Origin: Fimbriimonadaceae bacterium
GTDB lineage: Bacteria; Armatimonadota; UBA10988
Length of the DNA stretch: 64,000 nucleotides
NCBI GenBank assembly: GCA_020850355.1
Contig: JADZEX010000016.1
Span: 1-64,000, forward strand
Direction: 5' to 3'
The notes under the pieces were generated by a model, which had not been told where the DNA came from, did no database searches, and was given only the letters and a program-made list of their open reading frames with translations. Positions within the stretch are counted from its first letter, which is position 1, and each line of letters begins with the position of its first letter. Position numbers and translations under genes: made by a program. Positions 2,293 to 59,220 of the stretch are shown piece after piece.

Positions 2293-3502
2293 CGGCGTCG
2301 TCCCCGGCCGCCAGGCGGGCCAGCACCCAGGCCCGCTCCTCCTCGCGGCACCTCACTTTACGATCAATCCGCGCGTCGCGCAATCCGGCCAGCAGCCGTC
2401 CCAGCCGCGGACCGGACGGGACGCCCAGCGCCTGCAGCGCGTGCCCATCCAGCTCCGCCCGACTCGGCCAGCCGCCACGCCACCAGGCGGCCAGCGGTCG
2501 CCGCAGCGCCGGTTGCCAGACTGCCAGGGCGACCGCCAACTCGGCGGGCAGGCCCTCGATCCAGCGCAGCAGCGCGCTGCGCGGCGCGGTCGGCAGCGCT
2601 CGGCGGCGCCACGCGGCGGCCTGCTGCAGCGCCGCCGTCAGCGTCAGATCCGGCGTCAGGCGAGCCGCCAACGCCGCGCCGTCGCCGTCGGGCGGCAGGC
2701 CCAGCAGCAGCAGCACCCGCCACGGCGCGACGCCTGCCAGGGCGGCCAGCCGCAGCGCCGCGGCCACCTCGCGCGCAGTCGGCGCCCGGAGGCCGGGCTG
2801 CACCGCTGCCAGCAGCCCCCAGCGCCGCAGACACTGCAGTTGCGCGCCCGCGGCAGGCTCGCTGAGGCAGCGCTGCAGCTCGTGGCGCAGCCGGTCGGGC
2901 GTCAACAGATCGATCCGTCCGGCGGAGACGGCCGTCCGGATCAGCCGGGCGGTGCGGTCGGTCGGCCGCAGCCCAAGCCGCGTGGCGTAGCGCGCGGCGC
3001 GGTAGAGGCGGGTTGGATCGTCGTCGAAGGAGCCGTCGTGGAGCACCCGCAGGCGCCCAGCGCGGAGGTCGGCCAGGCCGCCCCGGGGATCGATTAGCTC
3101 GCCCCACTCGGCTGCGTGCAGCGCCAGCGCCAGGGCGTTGACCGTGAAGTCGCGCCGCGCCAGGTCGGCGGCCAGGTCGGCCGGCTCAACGCGCGGCAGG
3201 GCGGCCGGCGCGTCGTACCACTCGCGGCGGGCTTGCACCAGGTCGAGCTCCTGGCCGTCGGGCCAGGCGACCGTGGCGGTGCCGAAGCGGGTGGCCTTGA
3301 CCACCTGCACCCGCAGGCCGCTCGCCACGGCGCCGACGTCGCCCCGCACGACGACGTCGAGATCCCCCGGTGGGCGGCCCGCCAGCAAGTCGCGGACCGC
3401 GCCGCCGACCAACCAGGCCCCGCCGGCGCAGGCGGCGATCCGACGCAGGCGCTGCGGCCACGGTGGCGGCAGGCTGGCCAGCAGCGCCGCGCCGCAACTC
3501 AC
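2282..3502 (-). CDS. CCA tRNA nucleotidyltransferase / poly(A) polymerase family protein
   Basis: Class II nucleotidyltransferase expected to add or repair the 3' CCA of tRNA. The head domain shows GGAVRDLLAGRPPGDLDVVV, with the catalytic DLD at residues 47-49, followed by RRDFTVNALALAL and the RNA-binding neck motif FDDDPTRLYRAARYATRLG. It is 406 residues and has no recognisable HD phosphohydrolase domain. It starts with GTG in a GTGA overlap with the response-regulator stop codon and ends inside the site-2 protease gene. Sequence alone cannot tell a full CCA-adding enzyme from an A-adding or poly(A) enzyme. The Ala/Arg-rich C-terminal half is typical for the family in GC-rich genomes. Confidence 0.9.
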   Translation of the reverse strand: MSCGAALLASLPPPWPQRLRRIAACAGGAWLVGGAVRDLLAGRPPGDLDVVVRGDVGAVASGLRVQVVKATRFGTATVAWPDGQELDLVQARREWYDAPAALPRVEPADLAADLARRDFTVNALALALHAAEWGELIDPRGGLADLRAGRLRVLHDGSFDDDPTRLYRAARYATRLGLRPTDRTARLIRTAVSAGRIDLLTPDRLRHELQRCLSEPAAGAQLQCLRRWGLLAAVQPGLRAPTAREVAAALRLAALAGVAPWRVLLLLGLPPDGDGAALAARLTPDLTLTAALQQAAAWRRRALPTAPRSALLRWIEGLPAELAVALAVWQPALRRPLAAWWRGGWPSRAELDGHALQALGVPSGPRLGRLLAGLRDARIDRKVRCREEERAWVLARLAAGDDADAC

Positions 3503-3873
3503 GTCGCGCCGCCGAGCGCAGCGTCGACCAGATCGGCCAGTTGGCGAGGGCTGAAGGGTTTGGTGAGGTAGCGGTCGGCACCGACCTGCTTGCCCTGCTC
3601 GACGTCCCGCTCCTGCCCGCGGGCGGTCAGCAGAAAGATCGGCACGCCCGCCAGGGCCGGCTCGGAGCGGATCTGCTGGCAGGCCTCGAAGCCGCTGAGG
3701 TTCGGCATCATCACGTCCAGGAAGATCAACGCTGGCACCTCCGATTTGGCCAGCGCCACCGCGCGGTCGCCGGCTTCGGCGGTGATCACCTCATAGCCGC
3801 GGCGCGAGAGGACGTCTTTCAGCAGGCGGACGATGTGCGGCTCGTCGTCAGCCACCAGGATCTTCTTCGCCAT
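3499..3873 (-). CDS. Single-domain response regulator (CheY-like receiver)
   Basis: A 124-residue stand-alone receiver domain with no output domain. The acidic pocket is Asp9-Asp10, the phospho-acceptor is Asp53 in LIFLDVMMP, the switch Thr is Thr83 and the conserved Lys is Lys105 in LTKPF, so phosphorylation should be intact. I chose the ATG at 3873 because a strong ribosome site (GGGAGG) lies 8 bases before it; a start seven codons upstream is possible but has none. A good promoter lies directly upstream (3895-3924), so this gene heads the operon leading to trpS and scpA. No histidine kinase is nearby, so the partner is unknown. Confidence 0.93.
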   Translation of the reverse strand: MAKKILVADDEPHIVRLLKDVLSRRGYEVITAEAGDRAVALAKSEVPALIFLDVMMPNLSGFEACQQIRSEPALAGVPIFLLTARGQERDVEQGKQVGADRYLTKPFSPRQLADLVDAALGGAT

Positions 3874-3894
3874 GCGGTGCGCCTCCCAGGGCAC

Positions 3895-3924
3895 AGTCTA
3901 CGAGACGCTGCCGCCGGGCGTCAA
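3895..3924 (-). promoter_or_regulatory. Sigma-70-type promoter of the response regulator-scpA operon
   Basis: Reading the minus strand, the -35 box TTGACG lies at 3924-3919 and the -10 box TAGACT at 3900-3895, separated by 18 bases. Transcription would start near 3888, giving a leader of about 15 bases that contains the GGGAGG ribosome site of the response-regulator gene. The spacing and short leader resemble the ftsY promoter in this window. Confidence 0.7.
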
Positions 3925-3954
3925 CGGCTCAGAGTGGCTAGTTCGCGCCTGCGA

Positions 3955-6900
3955 TCAACCGCGTCGCGCCTCCAGGGTGAGGCCGTCGCCGAGGGTCACC
4001 GTCGCCGGCAGGCCGCCCCAGCCGGGGCCCAGGTCGAGCCGGTAGGGCCGCGGCGCGCCGCCCTGACAGCGGATCGTCAGGGTCGTGGCGGTGGCGGTAA
4101 TCGTCAGCACCGTGTCGCGGAAGTGGATCCGGTCCAGCGTCAGGCTCGGCCAATCGCGCGGCAGGCGCGGGTTCAGTGCCAGGCCGTCGGCGCGGGCCTC
4201 CAGGCCGAGGAAACCGTAGAGCACAAGCTGCGGCACCAGCGCGCTCTCGAAGAACTCCTGGTCCATGCCCAGACCGCCGGGCGGGCCACCGCCCTGCAAG
4301 GTGCCGCGACCGCCGACCGCGTAGTAGGCGCGGTACCCGCCGGCGGCGCGGATGTCGGCAAACCAGTCGAGCGTCCGGCGCAGCGCCTGCCAGGCGTTGT
4401 CAGGCCCGGCGGTGGCCAGGCGGGCCGACTGGTCGTGATAGGCAAAGCCCAGCACGGCCCCGCCGTCTTGGACCTGGCCTCCCCAGGGGATCGTCTCAGG
4501 GTTGGACCAGACGAAGGTGTACCAGTCGAGGTTGCGCCGCGTGCTGGCGCGCGGGCCGAACCGCCAGTGGTAGATGTCGGCGCCGGTGGCGGTGTCGCCA
4601 GCCACGGTCCGCTGGCCATCCAGCCAGGCGATGACCTCGCGCGCCTGCGCCGGGCTGGCCAGGCCGTAATGGATCGCCTCGGCATTGACGAAGGTGTAGC
4701 CGTAATCGTGAGCCGTCCCGGCCCGGTCGACGCAGGCCACGAAGCGGCCGGCGGTGGGATTCCAGAAGTGCTGCTGGAACCGCTCGCGGACGGTGGCCGC
4801 CAGCGCCGCCAGGGCGGCCGCGTCGCGCGTGGGGGCGGGCAACCCCCAGGCCGGCTGCCGCGCCACGGCCGCTTCCAGCTCGGCCATCCGGCGGAGGGCA
4901 TCGTAGGTGTAGATCGTCGCCAGGGAGTCGTCGCCGCTGAACGGCAGGAGATCCCAGTAGTTGGCGCCGATGCCGTAGCCGGGACGGACGGTCTTGCTGC
5001 CGTCGGCCGCCAGGTGCAGGCCGCTGCTGCCGTCATGGCCGACCCACGGCAGGCGCACGAAGCCGTGCTGCGGGACGCCGAACTCGGTCAGGGCAAACTC
5101 CAGGGCGGTCCGCATCCGGGCCAGGTTCTGTTGCAGGAACGGCAGGTCACCGGTCCAGCGGAAGTACTCGGTGCAACCGGCGAGGTAGGTCGGGTTGTTG
5201 ACCGGGTGCCGCGTGTCGCAGGCAGTGAGCAGGCCGAGCAGCCGGATCTGCCCGCCGACGGCGCCTGCGAAGCTGAGGCGCAGCCCGCCGATCCGGGTCG
5301 CCGGGTCGACCTGGCGGTAGAGCGGGACGTGCGTGTAGGGTCGGCCCGGCGTGTCGCTGACCAGCGGCAGTGGCAGGCTGCGGGGCGCTGTGAAGCCGGT
5401 CTCCTGCGGCGTCCGCCAGTGCAGCGTCGCGCGGCTCCCGGCAGGCAGCTCCGGGTTCCACTCCAACCGCACGAAGGGCGCCACCTGGCGGTCGATGTCG
5501 AAGGGTGGGGTGGTCAGATTGGCGGTCGGCGCGGTGACCCGCAGCACGAGGCCCTGGACCTTGTCGAGACTGACCACCTCCAGCCCGTCGAGTTGCCAGC
5601 CCTCCAGCTTGGCGGCGCCGACGCGGTAGGCGGTGTGTTCGCTGGCGAACTGCCACATCACACCGCCAGCTTGTGGCGCGGTGGGGAACGGCCAGCCCTC
5701 GCCGTGACCGAAGCCGTGGTGCTGGATGGTGCTGACGTAGCCCTCGCGGTCGATCGGCCGTTGCAGCAGGCTGTCGCGCCAGATCTCGCGGAAACCGCTC
5801 TGCCCCGGTGCAGCGCCCGTCGCGGGCCACAGCGAGCAGGTGCTCAGCCAAGTGTCCCACATCGTCGCCTTCGGGCCGCTGCCGCCGTAATGCAGCCAGT
5901 GCAGTTGGCTCAGCAGCTCGGTGTAACGCTCCTGCCCGGGCACCACGGCTCGCGGGAAGTCGGGCGGCACCAGCCAGGTCAGAAAGCCCTGCGTGTTCCA
6001 CGGGGGGCAGCCGACGGCGCCCTGCGCCGCGGCCGGGGCCCAGCCGGCCTCATCCCCCTGCGGCTGCTGCCAGCCCACGCTGGCCTGCGCGCTAACCCGC
6101 CAGGTCGGCCCGGTCGGCAACGCCTGCAGGGCCCGGCCACCGGCATCGAGCAGCATCAGCGCCGCCGCCAGGCCGGCCGGATTGGCCTGCTGCCCGGCGT
6201 TGACCGCCTCCACCGCCAGCACGTTGCGGCCTGGCTGCAGGTAGGGCGTGCCGTCCATTTCGTACCAGTCGCCAAAGCTCGGCGCGGTGCCGAGGTAGGT
6301 GCCGTTGAGGTACAGGTTGGCGCTGTTGTCGGCCGAGGCGATCACCACCGCCTGCCGCACCGCCGCCAGGTCGGGCACGTCGAAGGTCCGCCGGAACCAG
6401 CGCGTGCCGACCGGCGCCTGGCCGTTGACCAGGTCGGCGGACCAGATCCACTGCACCTGCCGGAAGTCGAACTCGGTGACCGGTCGCCCGGCTGGCCGGG
6501 CGCGGGAGCGGTTGACGCGCACCGCGTCGGCCGGGGCAACGGCGAGCGGTTCGAGTTCGACCTGGTCGATCAGGACCGAGACGCCATCGGCCGGGTCGAC
6601 CTGCCGCAGCTCCAGCCAGAGCTGGCCGTCGCCGGTCACGAAGGGCACCTCGAAGGTTCGCCAGGGCTGCTGGAACTGGCCGCCCGCGTCCACCGCCGGC
6701 ACGCGCTGCGGGCCGAGCAGCGGGGTGCCGTTGAGGCGCACCTCGAGTTGCCCGAAGTTGCCGGGACCGGCCAGATCGGAAGCCCGGCCGTTGGCCCGCA
6801 GCCGCAACCGGTAGCAGCCGTCGCGCTCGAACGGCCCGACCTCCTGGCGCAAGGTGGCGAGGTTCTGCAGGGCCACCACGAAGCGTCCGTCGGGCGTCGC

Positions 6901-20688: not shown

Positions 20689-22206
20689 ATGCGACGAACC
20701 CGGCGAGGTTGGCTGTGGGGCGTGCTGCTGCTGACCGGCTGTAGCGGTGGCGGCGGCACCAACGCGCTGACCGGTAACCTCGCCGGGTACGTCTACGCTG
20801 CCGGCGGCGCGCTGGTGATCCGCAGCTCGGCCGGCCCGGCGGGCGGCGAGGTGCCGGTGCAGAGCGCCGTGGTCACCTGCCCTGGCGGCCTCGACCTGAC
20901 CGACACCACCGGCCGCTTCGACCTGGTCGGCCTGCAGCCGGGCGAGCAGACCGTGACGATTTCGAAGACCGGCTACAGCAGTGTCGTGCTGACCGGCACG
21001 GTGACCGCCGGCACGACCAACCTGTTGGGTCAGCCGGGCAGCAGCACGCGGCAGTGGACCGTGATGGTCTATCTCGATGCCGACAACCAGCGCGAGAGCG
21101 CGGCGCTGGCGGATCTGCTGGAACTGGAGCGGGTCGGCAGCACCAGTGCGGTGACGGTCGATGTGCTCTGCGACCGGGCCGTCGGCTACGACACCTCCAA
21201 CGGCGACTGGACGGGCGCGCGGCGCTTCACGGTGCAGCGCAGCAGCGATCCGACCCGCGTGCTGTCGTCGCGACTGGAATCGGAAGGCGGCAGTGCCACC
21301 GCCGAGGGCGAGCCCGACATGGGTGACCCGGCCGTGCTGCGGGCCTTCATCCAGAGCAGCCAGGCCCGCTGGCCGGCCAATCGGTACCTGCTGGTGGTCT
21401 GGGGCCGCGGCGGCGGCTGGCGTGCGCGAGCGGTCAGCAGCGACCTGACGGGCACGCCGCTGACCGTCGCCGAGCTGCCCAGCGCGTTGCAGACTTCGCC
21501 CGCCCTGGATGTCGTCGCCTTCGACAGCGATCTGGCGCAGATGCTGGAGACGGTCTACCAGATCCGCAACCGCTGCGGCTACGTGGTGGGCAGCCAGGAG
21601 CTGGTCCCCAGCGGCGGCCTGCCCTACGCGGCGCTGCTCACGGCGCTGACCGGCGACGCCACCCAAACGCCGGCGGAGCTGGCCGCGGCGCTCGTCACCG
21701 GCAGCGTCGACTTCTACGCTGGCAGCGCCACGGCGACCTGGGCCGCGGTCCGCACCGACCGGCTGGATACCGTCGCCGACCGCTTGGACGACCTCGCCAC
21801 CCGCTTGCGGCAGATCGGCGACGACACCAACCAGGCCGCGCAGCAGGCTGCCCGCGACGCCGCCCAGGGCTACGGCGGTGGCGACGAGCGGTTCCACGGT
21901 TACCGCGACCTGGTGGACCTGGCGACGCGGCTGGGCAGCGGCTTGAGCGACGTCACCCTGAGCAACGCCGCGGCAGCGCTGGAGACCGCGGTGACGGCCG
22001 CGCTGGTGGCGCGGGACAGCACCGGTGGCAGCGTCGCCGGGTCGCACGGCCTGAGCATCTACCTGCCCGACCGCGACGACTACCTCGGCCCCGGCGTCAG
22101 CGGCGAAACGCCGCGGCAGGACGCGTACGAAGCGCTCGAACTGAGCCGCGACACGAACTGGGACAACTACCTCGACGAGTTCTGTTCGCGGCAGCCGCGA
22201 CCTTAG
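20689..22206 (+). CDS. Clostripain-like (C11) lipoprotein, catalytic dyad lost
   Basis: A 505-residue predicted lipoprotein (MRRTRRGWLWGVLLLTGC). Residues about 30-120 form a carboxypeptidase-regulatory-like beta-sandwich (TDTTGRFDLVGLQPGEQTV). The C11 caspase-like domain begins with WTVMVYLDADNQ. In active clostripain relatives the dyad sits in a WNHGAGW and an FDACLM motif. Here the first reads WGRGGGW (Arg240 in place of His) and the second FDSDLAQM (Asp281 in place of Cys), so peptidase activity is not expected. A second paralogue at 53554-55155 keeps the His but has Ser for Cys. It may be a binding or adhesion protein. A sulfatase gene follows nine bases downstream. Confidence 0.87.
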   Translation: MRRTRRGWLWGVLLLTGCSGGGGTNALTGNLAGYVYAAGGALVIRSSAGPAGGEVPVQSAVVTCPGGLDLTDTTGRFDLVGLQPGEQTVTISKTGYSSVVLTGTVTAGTTNLLGQPGSSTRQWTVMVYLDADNQRESAALADLLELERVGSTSAVTVDVLCDRAVGYDTSNGDWTGARRFTVQRSSDPTRVLSSRLESEGGSATAEGEPDMGDPAVLRAFIQSSQARWPANRYLLVVWGRGGGWRARAVSSDLTGTPLTVAELPSALQTSPALDVVAFDSDLAQMLETVYQIRNRCGYVVGSQELVPSGGLPYAALLTALTGDATQTPAELAAALVTGSVDFYAGSATATWAAVRTDRLDTVADRLDDLATRLRQIGDDTNQAAQQAARDAAQGYGGGDERFHGYRDLVDLATRLGSGLSDVTLSNAAAALETAVTAALVARDSTGGSVAGSHGLSIYLPDRDDYLGPGVSGETPRQDAYEALELSRDTNWDNYLDEFCSRQPRP

Positions 22207-50317: not shown

Positions 50318-50346
50318 GTGACGCTGGCGGCTCGCCGGGCTATACT
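50318..50346 (+). promoter_or_regulatory. Sigma-70-type promoter of the nuoB pair
   Basis: GTGACG (50318-50323) and TATACT (50341-50346) are separated by 17 bases. The -10 box is strong and the -35 box matches at four positions. A start site near 50353 would give a leader of about 14 bases for the first nuoB gene. Confidence 0.65.
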
Positions 50347-50366
50347 ACCGCCGTGAGGCGCCGACT

Positions 50367-50972
50367 ATGCCGGACGACTACAACATCGATGACCAGGTGC
50401 TCACCACCCGGCTGAGCACGATGATCAAGTGGGCCGAACAGCAGCACGCCAAGCTGAAGCACTCGGTCGACGGGTTGATCACCGCCGACAACATCGTCGG
50501 GAACACCGTCACCGCCGTCGAGCGCTGGGCGCAGCGCAACTCGGTCTTCCCGGCCCTCTTCGGTCTGGCCTGCTGCGCCATCGAGATGATGGCCGCGGGC
50601 GGCTCGCACTTCGACATCTCGCGCTTCGGCAGCGAGGTCTTCCGCGCCTCGCCGCGGCAGGCCGACCTGATGATCGTGGCGGGCCGCGTGAGCTGGAAGA
50701 TGGCCCCGGTGCTGCGGCAGATCTACGACCAGATGGCCGAGCCGAAGTGGGTCATCGCGATGGGCGCCTGCGCCAGCAGCGGCGGCGTCTTCAACAACTA
50801 CGCGATCGTGCAGGGCGTCGACCGCATCGTGCCGGTCGATGTCTACGTCCCCGGTTGCCCCCCGCGGCCGGAGCTGCTGCTGAACGGCATCTTCTTGCTG
50901 CAAGAAAAGATCGGTCGGGGCGAGAGCGCGCGTGAGACGGCCCTGGCCGCCGCGGCCGGCGCCGCGGTTTGA
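50367..50972 (+). CDS. nuoB: NADH-quinone oxidoreductase subunit B (first copy)
   Basis: Subunit B of respiratory complex I, which carries the N2 [4Fe-4S] cluster in the peripheral arm close to the quinone site. At 201 residues it has all four cluster ligands: the tandem pair Cys69-Cys70 in GLACCAIEM, Cys135 in GACASSGG and Cys164 in VPGCPPRPE. The N-terminal about 50 residues are helical and variable. A second nuoB gene begins 11 bases after its stop; no other complex I subunit gene occurs in the window. The strong -10 box upstream suggests its own transcription unit. Confidence 0.95.
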
Positions 50973-50983
50973 CGGAGGGTTCA

Positions 50984-51592
50984 ATGGCCGACCACCAGAA
51001 CGGCGCCGGTGCCCCGCCGCAGTATCCCCCCAGCTTTGGCATGGCCGAGGCCTTCCCCGACGGCGGGGTGATGATGATGCACACCAATCACCTCGACGAC
51101 CTGATCAACACCGCCCGCGCCAACTCGTTGTGGTACATGACCTTCGGCCTGGCCTGCTGCGCCATCGAGATGATGGCCACCGCCGGCCCGCGCTACGATC
51201 TCGACCGCTTCGGCATGATTCCCCGCGCCACCCCGCGGCAGAGCGACCTGATGATTGTCGCCGGGACGGTCGTCAAGAAGATGGCCCCCCGGGTGAAGCG
51301 GCTCTACGACCAGATGGCCGAGCCGCGCTACGCCATCGCGATGGGGACCTGCGCCACGATGGGTGGTCCGTTCCAGGACAGCTACAGCGTGCTGATGGGC
51401 GCCGACCAGGTGATCCCGGTCGACGTCTACATCCCGTTCTGCCCGCCCCGCCCGGAGTCGCTGCTGCACGGCGTGCTGCAGTTGCAGCGCAAGATTCGCC
51501 ACGAGAAGTACCACCAGGCCCGCAGCATCTCGCCGCTCGGCCGGCTCTTGCGCGGCCTGCTTGACCGTGGCGAGGAGCGCGCGGCGGATTAG
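50984..51592 (+). CDS. NADH-quinone oxidoreductase subunit B paralogue (second copy)
   Basis: A 202-residue NuoB-family protein directly after the first copy. The four cluster ligands are kept (Cys58-Cys59, Cys123 in GTCATMGG, Cys153), but the fourth sits in IPFCPPRPE rather than the usual PGCPP, so Phe replaces the conserved Gly. The N-terminus is Met/Asp-rich and differs from copy one ([20 protein letters not shown]). The ATG at 50984 follows GGAGGG by six bases. It could be a subunit of a second complex I form or of a related hydrogenase-like complex; which of the two genes serves the main complex I is not clear. Confidence 0.92.
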
Positions 51593-51605
51593 CCGCGCGT
51601 TCGCG

Positions 51606-53447
<1,842 letters not shown>

Positions 53448-53553: not shown

Positions 53554-55155
53554 TTAGCCGCCGATGTTGTAGAAGTCGTCCAGCCACTCGTCCCAGCGGC
53601 CGTCGGTGGCGAAGGACTGCTGGCGGTAGCGCGTCCGCAGGTCCTGCCAGTCGGTCTGGCTGGGATTGAAGATCGCCACGCCGGTCGAATCGGCCTTGCT
53701 GCTGCCGCTATGGCGCTCGGCGACCAGTGCCGCGGTCAACGCGGCCCGGACCGCTTCGCGACCGGCGATCAACTGCGCGTCGTTGGTCCGCGAGGCGACC
53801 TCGTCGCAGAAGTCGAGCAGGTCGCGGTTGCCCTCGTAGAGCGAGCTGCCCGACCCATAGCGCTGGGCGGCCGCCCGGGCCGCGACGATCTGGGAGTGGA
53901 AGGTGCCGTCCTTGGCGCGCAGCAGATCGGCGTAGTTGCTGATGGCGGTCTGCAGCGCCCCGAGCTGCGCCGACCGCAGCGCCGACTGGGTCAGCTCGAA
54001 GCTGCCGCCCATCACGTCGACCGTCTCGTTGACGATGTGCGCGGCCAAGGTCTCCGCCGCGGTGTCGGGGTTGCTGATCAGCGGCGCCAGGATGTCGGTG
54101 TAGGGATAGCCCTCCCCAGGCGGCGATTCCTCGCTGCCGACCACAAAGGAGCAGAGGCCGCGAATCTGATAGGCCACTTCCATCATCTGCATCAGCGAGC
54201 TGTCGAAGCTCACGATGTCGAGGTTGGTCCCGACGTTCAGCGCGTCGGACAGCTCGGGCGTGGTGACGAAGGTGTTCTGGGTGTCATCGAACAGCACGCC
54301 GCGGGTGCCGCCCGCCGCGCGGTGCCGCCAGCCGGCGCCGTGGTTCCAGATGTTGACCAGATAGCGCTCGGCGGGGTACTCGGCCATGGCGTACTGGACG
54401 AACGCCTTCAAGACGTCCTTGTCGCCGGTGTCGACCTCGCCCAGCACCTCGGCCTGGCCGCCCTCGCCAGCCGAGAGGGCCGAGGTCATCACCGTCGGGT
54501 CACTGTCGTGCCGCACGCGGAAGCGGCGGGTGTCCGTCCAGTTGCCGTTCGAGGTGTCGAAGCCGCGGGTGCGGTCCAGCATCACGACGATGGCGACATC
54601 GTCGTGGTTGGCCAGCGCCTCCATCTCGTTGATGTCCTCGATGGCGTACTCTTCGAGGTCGTTGTCGGCGTTCATGAACATGATCAGAGTCCACTTGAAC
54701 TCCGCGTCGCCGCCGCCGCCACCGCCGCCACCGCCGACGACGTTCGAGAAGTTGGCGGTGGTGTCGCTATTGGCCACCGCCGTGGCGTCGGCGGACTGAC
54801 CCTGACAGCTCAGGCGGTACTGCCCCGGCTCGACATTGCCAAAAACGTAGTCGCCGCTGGTGTTGCTGACGGTGGTCGTGCTGCCGATCTGCCGGCTGCG
54901 GTTCTCGGTCAGCCGGTAGAGCGTCACGGTCACCCCGCTGACGCCCACCAGGCTGCTGTTGAGCAGCCGCCCAGCCAGCTTGCCGCGGCCCGCCGAGCGG
55001 GTATCGACGCCAGGCAGGACGCCGGCGGTGGTGAAGTTGTAGGTCGTGTCGACCACCAACCCGCCGCCTGTCGTGCTGCCGCCCCCACTGCAGCCGGCCA
55101 ACCCGAAGGTGGCCAGGCTCAGAACCGTTCCCCACCAGACTGCCTGCCGTCGCAT
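53554..55155 (-). CDS. Clostripain-like (C11) lipoprotein with Cys-to-Ser change
   Basis: A 533-residue predicted lipoprotein (lipobox FGLAGC). An N-terminal carboxypeptidase-regulatory-like sandwich (about 45-125; TSGDYVFGNVEPGQYRLSCQ) and a Gly-rich linker precede the C11 domain, which opens WTLIMFMNADNDLEEYAIED. The catalytic His is kept (His272 in IWNHGAGW) but the Cys position holds Ser320 in SFDSSLMQMMEVAYQI. This suggests loss of normal cysteine-peptidase activity or a switch to a serine nucleophile. The first paralogue (20689-22206) has lost both residues. The ATG at 55155 has AGGAG at seven bases; the ATG at 55170 is an alternative. Confidence 0.87.
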   Translation of the reverse strand: MRRQAVWWGTVLSLATFGLAGCSGGGSTTGGGLVVDTTYNFTTAGVLPGVDTRSAGRGKLAGRLLNSSLVGVSGVTVTLYRLTENRSRQIGSTTTVSNTSGDYVFGNVEPGQYRLSCQGQSADATAVANSDTTANFSNVVGGGGGGGGGDAEFKWTLIMFMNADNDLEEYAIEDINEMEALANHDDVAIVVMLDRTRGFDTSNGNWTDTRRFRVRHDSDPTVMTSALSAGEGGQAEVLGEVDTGDKDVLKAFVQYAMAEYPAERYLVNIWNHGAGWRHRAAGGTRGVLFDDTQNTFVTTPELSDALNVGTNLDIVSFDSSLMQMMEVAYQIRGLCSFVVGSEESPPGEGYPYTDILAPLISNPDTAAETLAAHIVNETVDVMGGSFELTQSALRSAQLGALQTAISNYADLLRAKDGTFHSQIVAARAAAQRYGSGSSLYEGNRDLLDFCDEVASRTNDAQLIAGREAVRAALTAALVAERHSGSSKADSTGVAIFNPSQTDWQDLRTRYRQQSFATDGRWDEWLDDFYNIGG

Positions 55156-55307
55156 CCGGCTTCTCCTCATGCTTCCCACCGCCCGCCGCGGGCGCTGACT
55201 CCAACGCCCGGCCAGGGCGCTCTCTTCAAGTGTACCGTCCGGGACGCCCTCCGCGGCGACGTCGTCAAGTCGGCGGTGCTACGAAAGCATGACGCGCCGC
55301 CCCCAGG

Positions 55308-58043
55308 CTAGCTGCCGGGGGCTGCCCAGGGCCAGCCGATCACCGCGAAGCCGGCCCAGAAGAAGGGGTGCAGCGTACTGCGCCGCACCTCGCGCTGGGC
55401 CGCGGCGAGCGCCGCGGCGGGGTCGCGGGTGGCGCGCCAGTGCTCGTAGAAGCTGGCCATCAGGTGGCCGGTGGCCGCGTCGGGGGCCCACCACAACGAG
55501 GCGATCACCTGGCGAGCGCCGGCGTGCAGAAAGGCGCGCGCCAGGCCGACCAGTTCGGCGGTCGCCGTGCCTTGCCGACCGGTCTCGCAGGCGGCCAGGG
55601 TCACCAGGCTGCCCGGCAGCCGACAGCGGTAGAGGTCGGCGGCGGTGATCAGCTCGCCGTTCTCGAGGCGCAGGGCGCTGAACAGCGGGCTCTCGGGCCG
55701 GAACACGGCGTGTCCGCAGAAGTGGACCAGGCCAACCTGCTGGCTGGCGGCCAGGACCGCCTCGCGGGTGGCCGCGGCGCCGCGTAGCAGCACGGTGTCG
55801 AGCACGCCGCTGACCGCCCGCAGTTCGGCCTCAACCGCGGCCAGGTGCTCGCGGGCGCCGCCCACCGCCAGGCCGCCGCCGACGCTGGCGGCGGGCCGGG
55901 TGGCCAGCCGCGCCAGCACCGCCGCCGACGGCACCAGACCGAGGGCATGGGTCTCGACGAGCAGGTCCAACCCGTCGTGCAGCGCCGCCCAGGGGATCCC
56001 CCAGAGCGGGCCGTGGGGGGCAATCACCAGCCGCTCGACGCTGTCGACGATGTCGGCCAGGGGGGCCAGCAGCAGGTCGTAGAGTTCCGCCAGGTCGGCT
56101 TCGGCGCCGGTCACCAGGCCCGGTCCAACCTGCGCCAGCCGTTCGGTGCCGGCCTGACAGAGCAGCACCAGGTTGCTTTCGTAACGCGCCAAAGCCTCGC
56201 GCACCTGCGGCAGCCGGCCCGGCAGATGGACCAGTTGCAGCACCTCTTGACCGAGCGCCAACAGCGTCAGGTCGTCGCCCTCGGTGAAGGTCTCCAGCAG
56301 CAGGGCGTCGCGCGGCAGCAAGCGGCGCAGCGCGGCGGCGTCCAGGGCAGTGGGCGCGAGACCGCGCAGCGCGGCCTCCTCGGGCGCCGCCACGGCCAGG
56401 CCGAGGTGCAGGTCGAGCAGCTCCTGGCGCGCCGCGGCCAGGTCGGCGACCCAGGTCTGGTAGGCCGCTGCGCCCGCGCGGGGGGCGTCGTCGGTGAGCA
56501 GTTCGTGCAGCCGCGCCGCCAGGTCGCGCTCGCGTTGCAGCCAGCTCGCGTCGGCGTCGGCGCTCGGCAGTTCGGCCAGGCTGACGGCGTCCACCAGACT
56601 CCGCGCCTTGGCGCGCTGCATCACGGCCAGGGCGGTCTCGGCATCGTGCAGCGTGTGGCAGAGCTGCAACAACGCGGCGTACAGCGCGCCATGGTCGGGG
56701 GCTTCGTCGAAGGCAGCCCGGAGCAGGTCGTGGCGCAGCCCGGCGCCGAGTTGCTCCAGGGCGTCGGCCGCCAGCAGGCCGTACTCGAGCGCCTGGCGCG
56801 CATCCCCGGCGGCGGCGGTGGCCCGCAGCAGACCCCACCAGGCGCGCCAGCGCAGGTCGCTGAGCGCCTCGGGGACCACGCCCAAGACGCTCCAACAGGT
56901 TTCGGCCGCCTCGTCCAGGCGGCCCTCGCGCCAGGCCAGCTCGGCCCGCAGCAGGTCGGCGGCGGCCGCCTCGTGGGGCAGGCCGCTGGTGGCCAAGGCC
57001 AGCCGCGCGCCCTGCAAGGTGGTGCGCGCGGCGGCGAAGTCGCCGCCGGCCATCTGCAGGCGCGCCCGCCAGAGCTCCGCCTCGGCGCCCTCCAGACGCA
57101 GGTCGAGCCGCCGGAAGATCTCGGCCGCTTCGTCGAGCGCGGCCAGCGCCGCCGCGGAGCGACCGCCACCGGCCAGCACCGCGGCGCGGTTCAGCAGCAG
57201 GGTGGCGCGGTGCGCCGGGGCCCCAGCCGCCAGCGGCGCGGCCGCTTCGTCGAGTGTCTGCAGCGCCAGTTGCGGATCGCCCAGCCGGCGGTAGACCTCC
57301 GCCAGATTCACCTTCACCTGCGCCGCTTCGGCCACCGCGCCCAGCTCTTCGAGCAGTTCGATGGCGGAGCGGTAACCGGCCAACGCTTCGCGGTAGAGCC
57401 GCAGCCCCTCGGCCGCGGCGGCCGCCGCCCAGCGGGCGCGGGCCACTTCCAGCGACTCGCCCAGCGCGCTGAAGGCCTGCTCCGCGGCCTGCGCGGCCTG
57501 CAGCGCCGCCTCGCAGCGGCCGACCTCGGTCAGCAGCGCGGCGCGGTTCAGGTCGAGCCGTGCCAGCTCGCGCTGGTCGCCGCTGCTGCGCAGCCGGCCG
57601 CGGACAGCGTCGAGCATTCCCAGAGCCGCGGTGTAACGCCCGCGGGCCCGCAGCACCAGGGCCTGGTTGGCGCGACAGGCGGTGACTTCGCGGTCAAGCC
57701 CGGCGGCTTCGTAGAGCGCGGCGGCCCGGTCGAGGGCGACCTCGGCCCCGGCGGCGTCGCCCGCCATCAGCCGCGTCACGGCCAGTTCGCGGGTTGCCTC
57801 GGCCAGGTCGGGTCCGGCGGGCATCAAGGTGACGGCGCGCTCGACCGCGGTCAGTGCGGCACCGACCTCGCCGGCGGCCCGGGCCAGCGCTGCGTCGGCC
57901 AGCTCCCGCCAGGCCCGTTCTTGGGCGGTGGCGGGCGGCGGCGCCGCGGACAGCAGCTCCTGCGCCGCGTGGCGGTCACCGGCGCGGGCGAGGTCGAGGA
58001 CTCGCCGGCCGCGGTCGGACCAGGTGTCGGCGGACTCCGGCAT
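55308..58043 (-). CDS. TPR-CHAT caspase-like protease
   Basis: A 911-residue protein with many TPR-like helical repeats over about residues 10-500 (ALDEAAEIFRRLDLRLEGAE), a linker, and a C-terminal CHAT domain (about 600-911). The caspase-type dyad is intact: His778 in LVHFCGHAVF and Cys819 in VTLAACETGRQG; the loop ARQVIASLWWAPDAATGHLM follows as in active CHAT proteases. TPR-CHAT proteins are activated by partner binding at the repeats and cut specific substrates. The gene overlaps the stop of the 178-residue protein and lies downstream of an ECF sigma gene in one operon, so both are candidate substrates or partners. Confidence 0.92.
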   Translation of the reverse strand: MPESADTWSDRGRRVLDLARAGDRHAAQELLSAAPPPATAQERAWRELADAALARAAGEVGAALTAVERAVTLMPAGPDLAEATRELAVTRLMAGDAAGAEVALDRAAALYEAAGLDREVTACRANQALVLRARGRYTAALGMLDAVRGRLRSSGDQRELARLDLNRAALLTEVGRCEAALQAAQAAEQAFSALGESLEVARARWAAAAAAEGLRLYREALAGYRSAIELLEELGAVAEAAQVKVNLAEVYRRLGDPQLALQTLDEAAAPLAAGAPAHRATLLLNRAAVLAGGGRSAAALAALDEAAEIFRRLDLRLEGAEAELWRARLQMAGGDFAAARTTLQGARLALATSGLPHEAAAADLLRAELAWREGRLDEAAETCWSVLGVVPEALSDLRWRAWWGLLRATAAAGDARQALEYGLLAADALEQLGAGLRHDLLRAAFDEAPDHGALYAALLQLCHTLHDAETALAVMQRAKARSLVDAVSLAELPSADADASWLQRERDLAARLHELLTDDAPRAGAAAYQTWVADLAAARQELLDLHLGLAVAAPEEAALRGLAPTALDAAALRRLLPRDALLLETFTEGDDLTLLALGQEVLQLVHLPGRLPQVREALARYESNLVLLCQAGTERLAQVGPGLVTGAEADLAELYDLLLAPLADIVDSVERLVIAPHGPLWGIPWAALHDGLDLLVETHALGLVPSAAVLARLATRPAASVGGGLAVGGAREHLAAVEAELRAVSGVLDTVLLRGAAATREAVLAASQQVGLVHFCGHAVFRPESPLFSALRLENGELITAADLYRCRLPGSLVTLAACETGRQGTATAELVGLARAFLHAGARQVIASLWWAPDAATGHLMASFYEHWRATRDPAAALAAAQREVRRSTLHPFFWAGFAVIGWPWAAPGS

Positions 58044-58579
58044 CAGGCCGGGATCTCGACCGGCTGCACCAGCCCGAGCGTCGGCACCAGCAGCTCATAC
58101 CGGCCTGGCGCGAGGCCCAGGAAGCGGAACCGTCCGAGCGGGTCGGTGTGGCTCTGTTCGAGCAACTCTCCGTCCACGAAGCGCAGTTCGACCTCCAGGT
58201 CGGCCGGGGACTCGAGGGCGGTCAGGAAGACCTGCCCCCGCACATTGAGGCCTTGCACGGCGTGTCCGAGCGCGGCATCGGCGTCGCCGCTGACGGCGCC
58301 CGGCAGCTCGACGGTGGCGGCGGAGCCGGCGCGCGAAGCCAGCGCGAAGGTGGCCAGCGAGGGCTGTTGCAGCGCCGCCAGGAAGTCCTCACGGACTTGT
58401 GCCAGGCGCGCCAGCCAGCTCTGGCGGGCGTCGGCCGACGGGCGGTGGTGCTCCCGCAGCAACCGCGTCGCCTGGTCCAGCACGGCCGCCGGCGGCGGCG
58501 GCAGAGGATCGGCCGCCAGATAGGCATCCAAGCGCTCTTCGAACAACATCGCCATCGGATTGCGCTCCGCCCGATTCAC
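58043..58579 (-). CDS. Small soluble protein between ECF sigma and CHAT protease, possible anti-sigma or protease substrate
   Basis: A 178-residue protein with no recognised family. The N-terminal about 95 residues look helical (MAMLFEERLDAYLAADPLPP, RQSWLARLAQVREDFLAALQ). The C-terminal about 80 residues form a carboxypeptidase-regulatory or transthyretin-like sandwich (HTDPLGRFRFLGLAPGRYEL). No transmembrane helix or zinc-binding HxxxCxxC anti-sigma motif is visible. It starts with GTG in a GTGA overlap with the sigma stop codon, seven bases after GAGGG; an ATG at 58555 is an alternative. Its stop shares bases with the start of the TPR-CHAT gene. Position between a sigma factor and a protease makes an anti-sigma role plausible but unproven. 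Confidence 0.75.
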   Translation of the reverse strand: MNRAERNPMAMLFEERLDAYLAADPLPPPPAAVLDQATRLLREHHRPSADARQSWLARLAQVREDFLAALQQPSLATFALASRAGSAATVELPGAVSGDADAALGHAVQGLNVRGQVFLTALESPADLEVELRFVDGELLEQSHTDPLGRFRFLGLAPGRYELLVPTLGLVQPVEIPA

Positions 58580-59220
58580 GGTCTGGCCCTCCCAACGCCC
58601 ACTCCCAGCTCGGCATTCCCAATGCTGCGAGGATCTTCGTGCAGCCACTCCAGGACCTGCCGCCGGACCTGTTCGCGCCCGCGGTGGATCCGCGTGGTGA
58701 CGGTGTTCTTCGGCATCTGCAGCCGCTCCGCGATGGTCTGGTGCCCCAGGCCGTCGCGGTAGTACAGCTCCAGCGGTTCGCGGAAGCGGTCGGGCAGTAG
58801 CCGCACGGCGCGCTGCACCAGGTCCAGCAGCTCCTTGTCCAGCAGCGCCTGCTCCACATCGACCTCGGCCGGCAGCAGCTCGCCGAGCTCGGGTTCGCCC
58901 TCTTCGGCGGCGCAATCGAACGACAGGTGGCCGTCGTGCCGCCTGCGGCGGCGCGCCTGGTCGATGATCACCGACTTCACCACGACTCGCAGGTAGGCGC
59001 GAAACCCGGTGCGGTACTCGTAGCTGACGATCTGCCGCTGGAGCTTCAGCCAGACCTCGCTGAAGATGTCGCCGGCGTCCTGGTCATCGACTCCGAACTG
59101 GCTGCAGACGGCGTAGACGAAGCGCGCGTAGCGCGTCAGCAGAGCTTCGCCCGCGGCCAGGTCGCCCGCCCGGAAGGCCAGCGCCAGGTCGTCGTCGATC
59201 CACCGCTCGTATCGTGGCAC
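58576..59220 (-). CDS. ECF-type sigma factor
   Basis: A 214-residue sigma-70-family factor with regions 2 and 4 only. Region 2 shows FVYAVCSQFGVDDQDAGDIF followed by SEVWLKLQRQI, with the -10-binding helix in FRAYLRVVVKSVIIDQARRR. Region 4 shows LPDRFREPLELYYRDGLGHQ then TIAERLQMPKNTVTTRIHRG, a typical helix-turn-helix for -35 recognition. It starts with GTG about eight bases after AAGGAG. It is the first gene of the sigma, small protein, TPR-CHAT operon; both overlaps are a few bases. The divergent gap 59221-59341 also holds the promoter of the possible LPP20-like gene, so it may contain targets of this factor. Confidence 0.92.
   Translation of the reverse strand: MPRYERWIDDDLALAFRAGDLAAGEALLTRYARFVYAVCSQFGVDDQDAGDIFSEVWLKLQRQIVSYEYRTGFRAYLRVVVKSVIIDQARRRRRHDGHLSFDCAAEEGEPELGELLPAEVDVEQALLDKELLDLVQRAVRLLPDRFREPLELYYRDGLGHQTIAERLQMPKNTVTTRIHRGREQVRRQVLEWLHEDPRSIGNAELGVGVGRARP

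Follow-up and report, generated by a model that had tools for sequence, protein, structure and literature searches.

Three overlapping genes in the window, the stretch of 64,000 nucleotides of a Fimbriimonadaceae genome that was analysed here, encode an ECF sigma factor, a 178-residue middle protein and a TPR-CHAT protease (Table 1). We propose that these genes form a cytoplasmic switch that operates independently of CRISPR, in which the CHAT protease would cut the middle protein, a putative soluble anti-sigma factor, and the sigma factor would thereby be freed. We assign this reading a probability of about 0.55. It is built on computed evidence: the gene set and its conserved synteny, the homology of the middle protein to the ZAS anti-sigma family, an intact catalytic dyad in the protease, and an invariant arginine in a predicted flexible linker of the middle protein.

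Organization and conservation of the operon

The open reading frames, their strand, overlaps and domains proved to be as described in the first-pass annotation. The sigma gene begins with a GTG codon preceded by a GGAG ribosome site, and its stop overlaps the start of the middle gene by 4 nt. The middle gene also starts with GTG, with GGGAGG before it, and its stop shares 1 nt with the start of the CHAT gene. The sigma factor matches TIGR02937 (9.6e-28) and the Pfam models r2 (1.7e-12) and r4_2 (5.6e-12); regions 2 and 4 are present and region 3 is absent, as in ECF sigma factors. Upstream of 35 sigma genes, a search for a common bipartite promoter did not rise above shuffled sequences; the one borderline case was GGAAC, in excess at 15 where the shuffles had a mean of 8.3 and a maximum of 14. 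PADLOC placed none of the three window proteins in a defence family, and on the relatives it returned generic TPR and BovA models.

Table 1. Features of the sigma/middle/CHAT operon and its neighbour in the window
Feature	Position	Strand	Basis
ECF sigma factor gene, 214 aa	58576..59220	(-)	TIGR02937, Pfam r2/r4; sigmas of relatives match
Middle gene, 178 aa; by profile comparison a soluble anti-sigma family member, diverged and without the zinc segment	58043..58579	(-)	hhalign, family model, AF2
TPR-CHAT protease gene, 911 aa	55308..58043	(-)	PF12770, invariant columns, AF2, Foldseek
Arg83 codon of the middle protein; candidate CHAT cleavage/recognition site	58331..58333	(-)	Alignment and pLDDT; cleavage putative
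Clostripain-family (C11) lipoprotein-like gene, directly 3′ of CHAT	53554..55179	(-)	PF03415 2e-49; alignment to 6n9j

A genome search for conserved three-gene synteny had been suggested as a check, and the synteny is indeed conserved: the same gene set was found in about 45 other loci, a recurrence that exceeds chance. A profile built from six middle proteins identified 23 members at E < 1e-10 in 291 genomes of Armatimonadota, the phylum of the window, with the window copy among them. In 21 of the 22 other members a CHAT gene is adjacent, the remaining one lying at a contig end, and 21 of the 22 have an ECF sigma gene at most 3 kb upstream. When a contig scan was run with only the window middle protein as query, zero relatives came up, because this copy is too diverged. 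Since the alignment of the middle proteins is likewise too variable for such a scan, the CHAT protein was used as the query instead, and among the named genomes the trio was located also in Chloroflexota, in Acidobacteriota and in one Burkholderiales MAG. The gene order is sigma-CHAT-middle in two Acidobacteriia loci (L074 and L079).

Of 50 middle-family ORFs, 44 have a CHAT gene as their immediate downstream neighbour on the same strand, and 46 have a sigma or sigma-like gene within 3 kb upstream. The latter count is slightly circular, as the sigma model for Anaerolineae was built from genes at that very position; of these nine divergent sigmas, only the six that TIGR02937 also matches count independently. 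Chance adjacency of a sigma gene is negligible, because the window's genome has only 27 sigma-70 region-2 genes in 6.67 Mb. The mirror-tree analysis gave co-divergence values of rho 0.53-0.62 against permuted maxima of at most 0.19, which partly reflects shared species history.

The sigma-like genes upstream of the middle gene in L076, L077, L084, L085, L110, L126, L128, L140 and L148 (Chloroflexota/Anaerolineae) are very divergent and match TIGR02937 barely or not at all. Locus L071 (G178, 3000-5519) contains a sigma gene, a CHAT gene split over two overlapping frames and then a middle-like protein, and is possibly a frameshifted copy. In Deltaproteobacteria, Nitrospirae and others (L103, L117, L121, L129, L139, L141, L142 and L151), CHAT domains also terminate open frames whose length is about 2,500 aa or more.

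The middle protein and the CHAT protease

The middle protein had been regarded as a new kind of partner, with neither a zinc anti-sigma motif nor a membrane helix. Both absences were borne out: the motif HxxxCxxC is missing from the window copy, and hydropathy gave no membrane-helix peak in 30 relatives from named genomes (maximum 19-residue mean 1.7). The novelty was not, for by profile comparison the protein is a diverged member of the soluble ZAS-type anti-sigma family that has lost its zinc segment. The ZAS motif is present at the N-terminus of 26 of 46 relatives, and zf-HC2 scores above the Pfam cut-off of 22.2 in L112 (31.0 bits), L110 (28.5 bits) and L148 (33.3 bits). Compared with all PDB sequences, the middle-family profile matches the anti-sigma factors RsiW (2.9e-4), RslA (0.004) and DdvA (0.0055), and weakly ChrR (0.27). 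The homology of the window copy to these known factors runs via its relatives. It aligns with the ZAS-bearing relatives over residues 17-169 (hhalign probability 94%, E 1.3e-7), and zinc-less and zinc-bearing members of the family align with 99.9% probability (8e-33). A family model built without the window copy picks the window middle protein alone among the 344 ORFs of the window (E 5e-4).

In the AF2 model, N-terminal helices (8-83) and a C-terminal beta-sandwich (102-176) are joined by a low-confidence stretch at about 74-100. The best Pfam match of the family is CarboxypepD_reg; in the window copy it covers residues 113-169 (E 1.7e-4) and stays below the Pfam cut-off, with 22.3 against 32.3. 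Foldseek found no anti-sigma fold for the model, only beta-sandwiches, none of them at E <= 0.001.

Whether the window copy binds the sigma factor is uncertain, because the zinc-binding segment itself is missing and not only its ligands. The protein might thus have ceased to inhibit sigma, serving only as an adaptor or substrate of CHAT while sigma is controlled otherwise; the N-terminus is moreover shortened in the window and Pyrinomonadaceae copies. We regard this as rather improbable. The RsiW alignment extends beyond the zinc finger into the ‘EAPADF’ segment, which the zinc-less members retain, the sigma-middle-CHAT order is kept in zinc-less lineages, and the N-terminal part is helical in the AF2 model.

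The protease carries TPR repeats and a CHAT domain (PF12770, 5.3e-58, 197 bits against a cut-off of 24). The His778/Cys819 dyad reported for it was found at these residues. Together with H774, both residues are unchanged throughout 28 CHATs of related operons and all 49 of a larger set. H778 and C819 form an intact caspase-type dyad, and proteolytic activity is predicted. The AF2 model (pTM 0.83) gave separase (2.7e-16) and Csx29 (3.7e-16) as its best Foldseek matches among solved structures. The position of D795 is acidic in 86% of the operon CHATs versus 16% of other CHATs; it was considered as an acidic pocket residue for arginine and dropped, as the window CHAT has Asn there.

Proposed route of sigma release

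Only two residues are invariant among 47 aligned members of the middle family: Gly115 in the sandwich and Arg83, which is present in 47 of 47. Arg83 falls within the low-confidence stretch that joins the helices to the sandwich; pLDDT there is below 50 at residues 74-93. Identity in the rest of the protein is about 20-25%, and the fixation of one residue within a linker that is probably disordered suggests a short linear motif. Cleavage after arginine is characteristic of several caspase-clan proteases, among them clostripain, metacaspases and separase. By analogy, Arg83 is likely to be the CHAT cleavage site; its invariance could instead reflect a role in binding.

From these results we infer the following route. 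In the resting state, the ECF sigma factor would be held by the N-terminal helices of the middle protein. A ligand or partner binding to the TPR superhelix would activate the CHAT domain through H778/C819, and CHAT would cut the middle protein in its flexible linker, most likely at or beside Arg83, parting the sigma-binding part from the beta-sandwich. The sigma factor would then be freed, perhaps after further degradation, and would transcribe a regulon to which the downstream gene for a mostly exported peptidase probably belongs.

Such a peptidase gene, S8-like, directly follows the CHAT gene (in Acidobacteriia, the middle gene) in 37 of 42 untruncated relatives. Pfam S8 was confirmed in all nine of the relatives' peptidases that were checked. 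Most of the S8-like peptidases have an N-terminal hydrophobic segment, which indicates that they are mostly exported. Their position bears on a different reading, in which the middle protein acts as a soluble anti-sigma factor and is released by its own sensing, through a ligand of the beta-sandwich or through zinc or redox state in the relatives, and CHAT cuts another target in a linked, separate step. Such a target might be an effector, the sigma factor or the precursor of the exported peptidase that the locus also encodes. ZAS anti-sigma factors of the ChrR and RshA type are freed by conformational change (PMC8999054), and the peptidase gene does follow CHAT in most loci. Yet the tight pairing of middle and CHAT genes and the invariant linker arginine in a fast-evolving protein both point to the middle protein as the CHAT partner, and export would separate most of the peptidases from a cytoplasmic CHAT. 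We therefore consider release by own sensing a less probable account, although the most serious of the alternatives, than release by CHAT cleavage.

The window locus has no subtilase neighbour; a C11 peptidase gene stands in its place, and its position and the relatives suggest that it belongs to the operon. The encoded lipoprotein also carries a CarboxypepD_reg/SdrD_B domain. Alignment to 6n9j places an apparent Ser at the position of the catalytic Cys (‘FDSSLMQ’ versus ‘FDACYMQ’), and the protein may for this reason be a pseudo-protease. A second C11 match lies at 21067-22179 (+) in the window. Two adjacent ORFs at 50340-51664 (-) share a repeat coding for a NuoB-like motif and are apparently tandem NADH dehydrogenase subunit genes.

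The same genome contains a sister set on a further contig (L049, contig C65, 5515-8443), where a macro-CHAT gene is followed by genes for an ECF sigma factor and a zf-HC2 protein. The latter scores 32.5 bits against the zf-HC2 cut-off of 22.2, and its arginine motif, ‘LPARGEA’, is similar to that of the middle family; direct BLAST between it and the window middle protein gave no significant match. The sensor half thus varies, with macro in place of TPR, while CHAT, anti-sigma and sigma stay. The macro domain suggests ADP-ribose or NAD-derived signals. It is tempting to generalize, tentatively and with less confidence than for the window operon, to a widespread, CRISPR-independent class of caspase-like CHAT proteases that turn on ECF sigma factors by cleaving soluble anti-sigma factors at a single arginine conserved in the linker; such a class would use interchangeable sensors (TPR, macro), and the signalling arm of Craspase would be one variant captured by CRISPR.

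Relation to known systems

The Craspase protease Csx29 cuts Csx30, the inhibitor of an ECF-like sigma factor, CASP-sigma (PMC10028731). Three components recur in this type III-E system (CASP/Craspase) and in the operon: a TPR-CHAT protein whose His/Cys dyad is H615/C658 in Csx29, an ECF-like sigma factor and its soluble inhibitor, which is putative in the operon. The first-pass annotation had likened the three genes to the effector arm of Craspase. The likeness gains from the synteny, the separase/Csx29 fold and the anti-sigma zinc fingers of the relatives; the part that made the middle protein a new partner does not stand. By this analogy, the operon most likely works as the Craspase arm does. 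It does not belong to type III-E, since it has no gRAMP partner, it scores 26 bits against a cut-off of 300 with the Csx29 model NF041237, and Csx30 homology is absent. All RAMP matches of the genome lie on contigs other than that of the window, and none of their frames exceeds 840 aa; at the sequence level no Csx30 chain is among the PDB matches of the middle-family profile at E <= 1. In contrast to Craspase, the window operon lacks Cas7-11 and a guide RNA, would respond to a different trigger, and recurs in several phyla. A decayed or displaced type III-E effector arm would explain the Csx29-like fold and the weak Csx29 match, but given the low score, the location and size of the RAMP genes, the missing Csx30 match and a distribution far wider than that of type III-E, this origin is largely refuted and extremely improbable. 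The operon suggests caspase-like control of sigma factors outside CRISPR, and it may represent the source of the signalling arm of Craspase.

The association of an ECF sigma gene with genes for a ‘carboxypeptidase’, a CHAT protein and a subtilase has already been published as ECF54, which section 3.3 of a review (PMC8999054, citing Casas-Pastor 2021 and Huang 2015) presents as a group without an anti-sigma factor. The window likewise has a CarboxypepD_reg-like protein and a CHAT protein beside an ECF sigma factor. Since CarboxypepD_reg is the best Pfam match of the middle family, the ‘carboxypeptidase’ of ECF54, as named in the review, is most likely this family. The window operon is, by gene context, most likely of the ECF54 type with an overlooked inhibitor. 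It differs from the published description in that the ‘carboxypeptidase’ family is ZAS anti-sigma-like and in having no subtilase at the window locus. The review's own proposal, drawn from gene context, is that the peptidases control sigma by direct degradation. We consider this quite unlikely, because the ‘carboxypeptidase’ gene matches a family whose members carry zf-HC2/ZAS, and the reading of ECF54 as lacking an anti-sigma factor should change. The published puzzle of proteases around a sigma factor without an anti-sigma factor becomes a pathway open to experiment, with the inhibitor named and mutation narrowed to one residue. The pathway would also bring a caspase-type cascade, in which a cytoplasmic CHAT comes before an exported peptidase, to bacterial phyla from which few models have been studied.

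No link between ZAS anti-sigma factors and CHAT outside CRISPR was found in the literature searched. The nearest parallels are partial. In the type III CRISPR system CalpL/CalpT/CalpS, a protease also cuts a soluble anti-sigma factor and frees an ECF sigma factor, as proposed for the window operon; that protease is a Lon-SAVED protein triggered by cA4 and not a CHAT (PMC11417357). RsiW, RslA and ChrR resemble the N-terminus of the middle family but have no CHAT partner, and they retain the zinc segment that the window copy lacks. Separase combines TPR-like repeats with a caspase-like domain, as the window CHAT does, but it is eukaryotic and its substrate is cohesin. DdvA (PDB 8rot, 8rw5, 8rlz) is a match of the window CHAT as well as of the middle-family profile. 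It unites a ZAS N-terminus and a CHAT-like C-terminus in one chain; DdvA is a transmembrane anti-sigma factor and a fusion, whereas the window proteins are separate and soluble.
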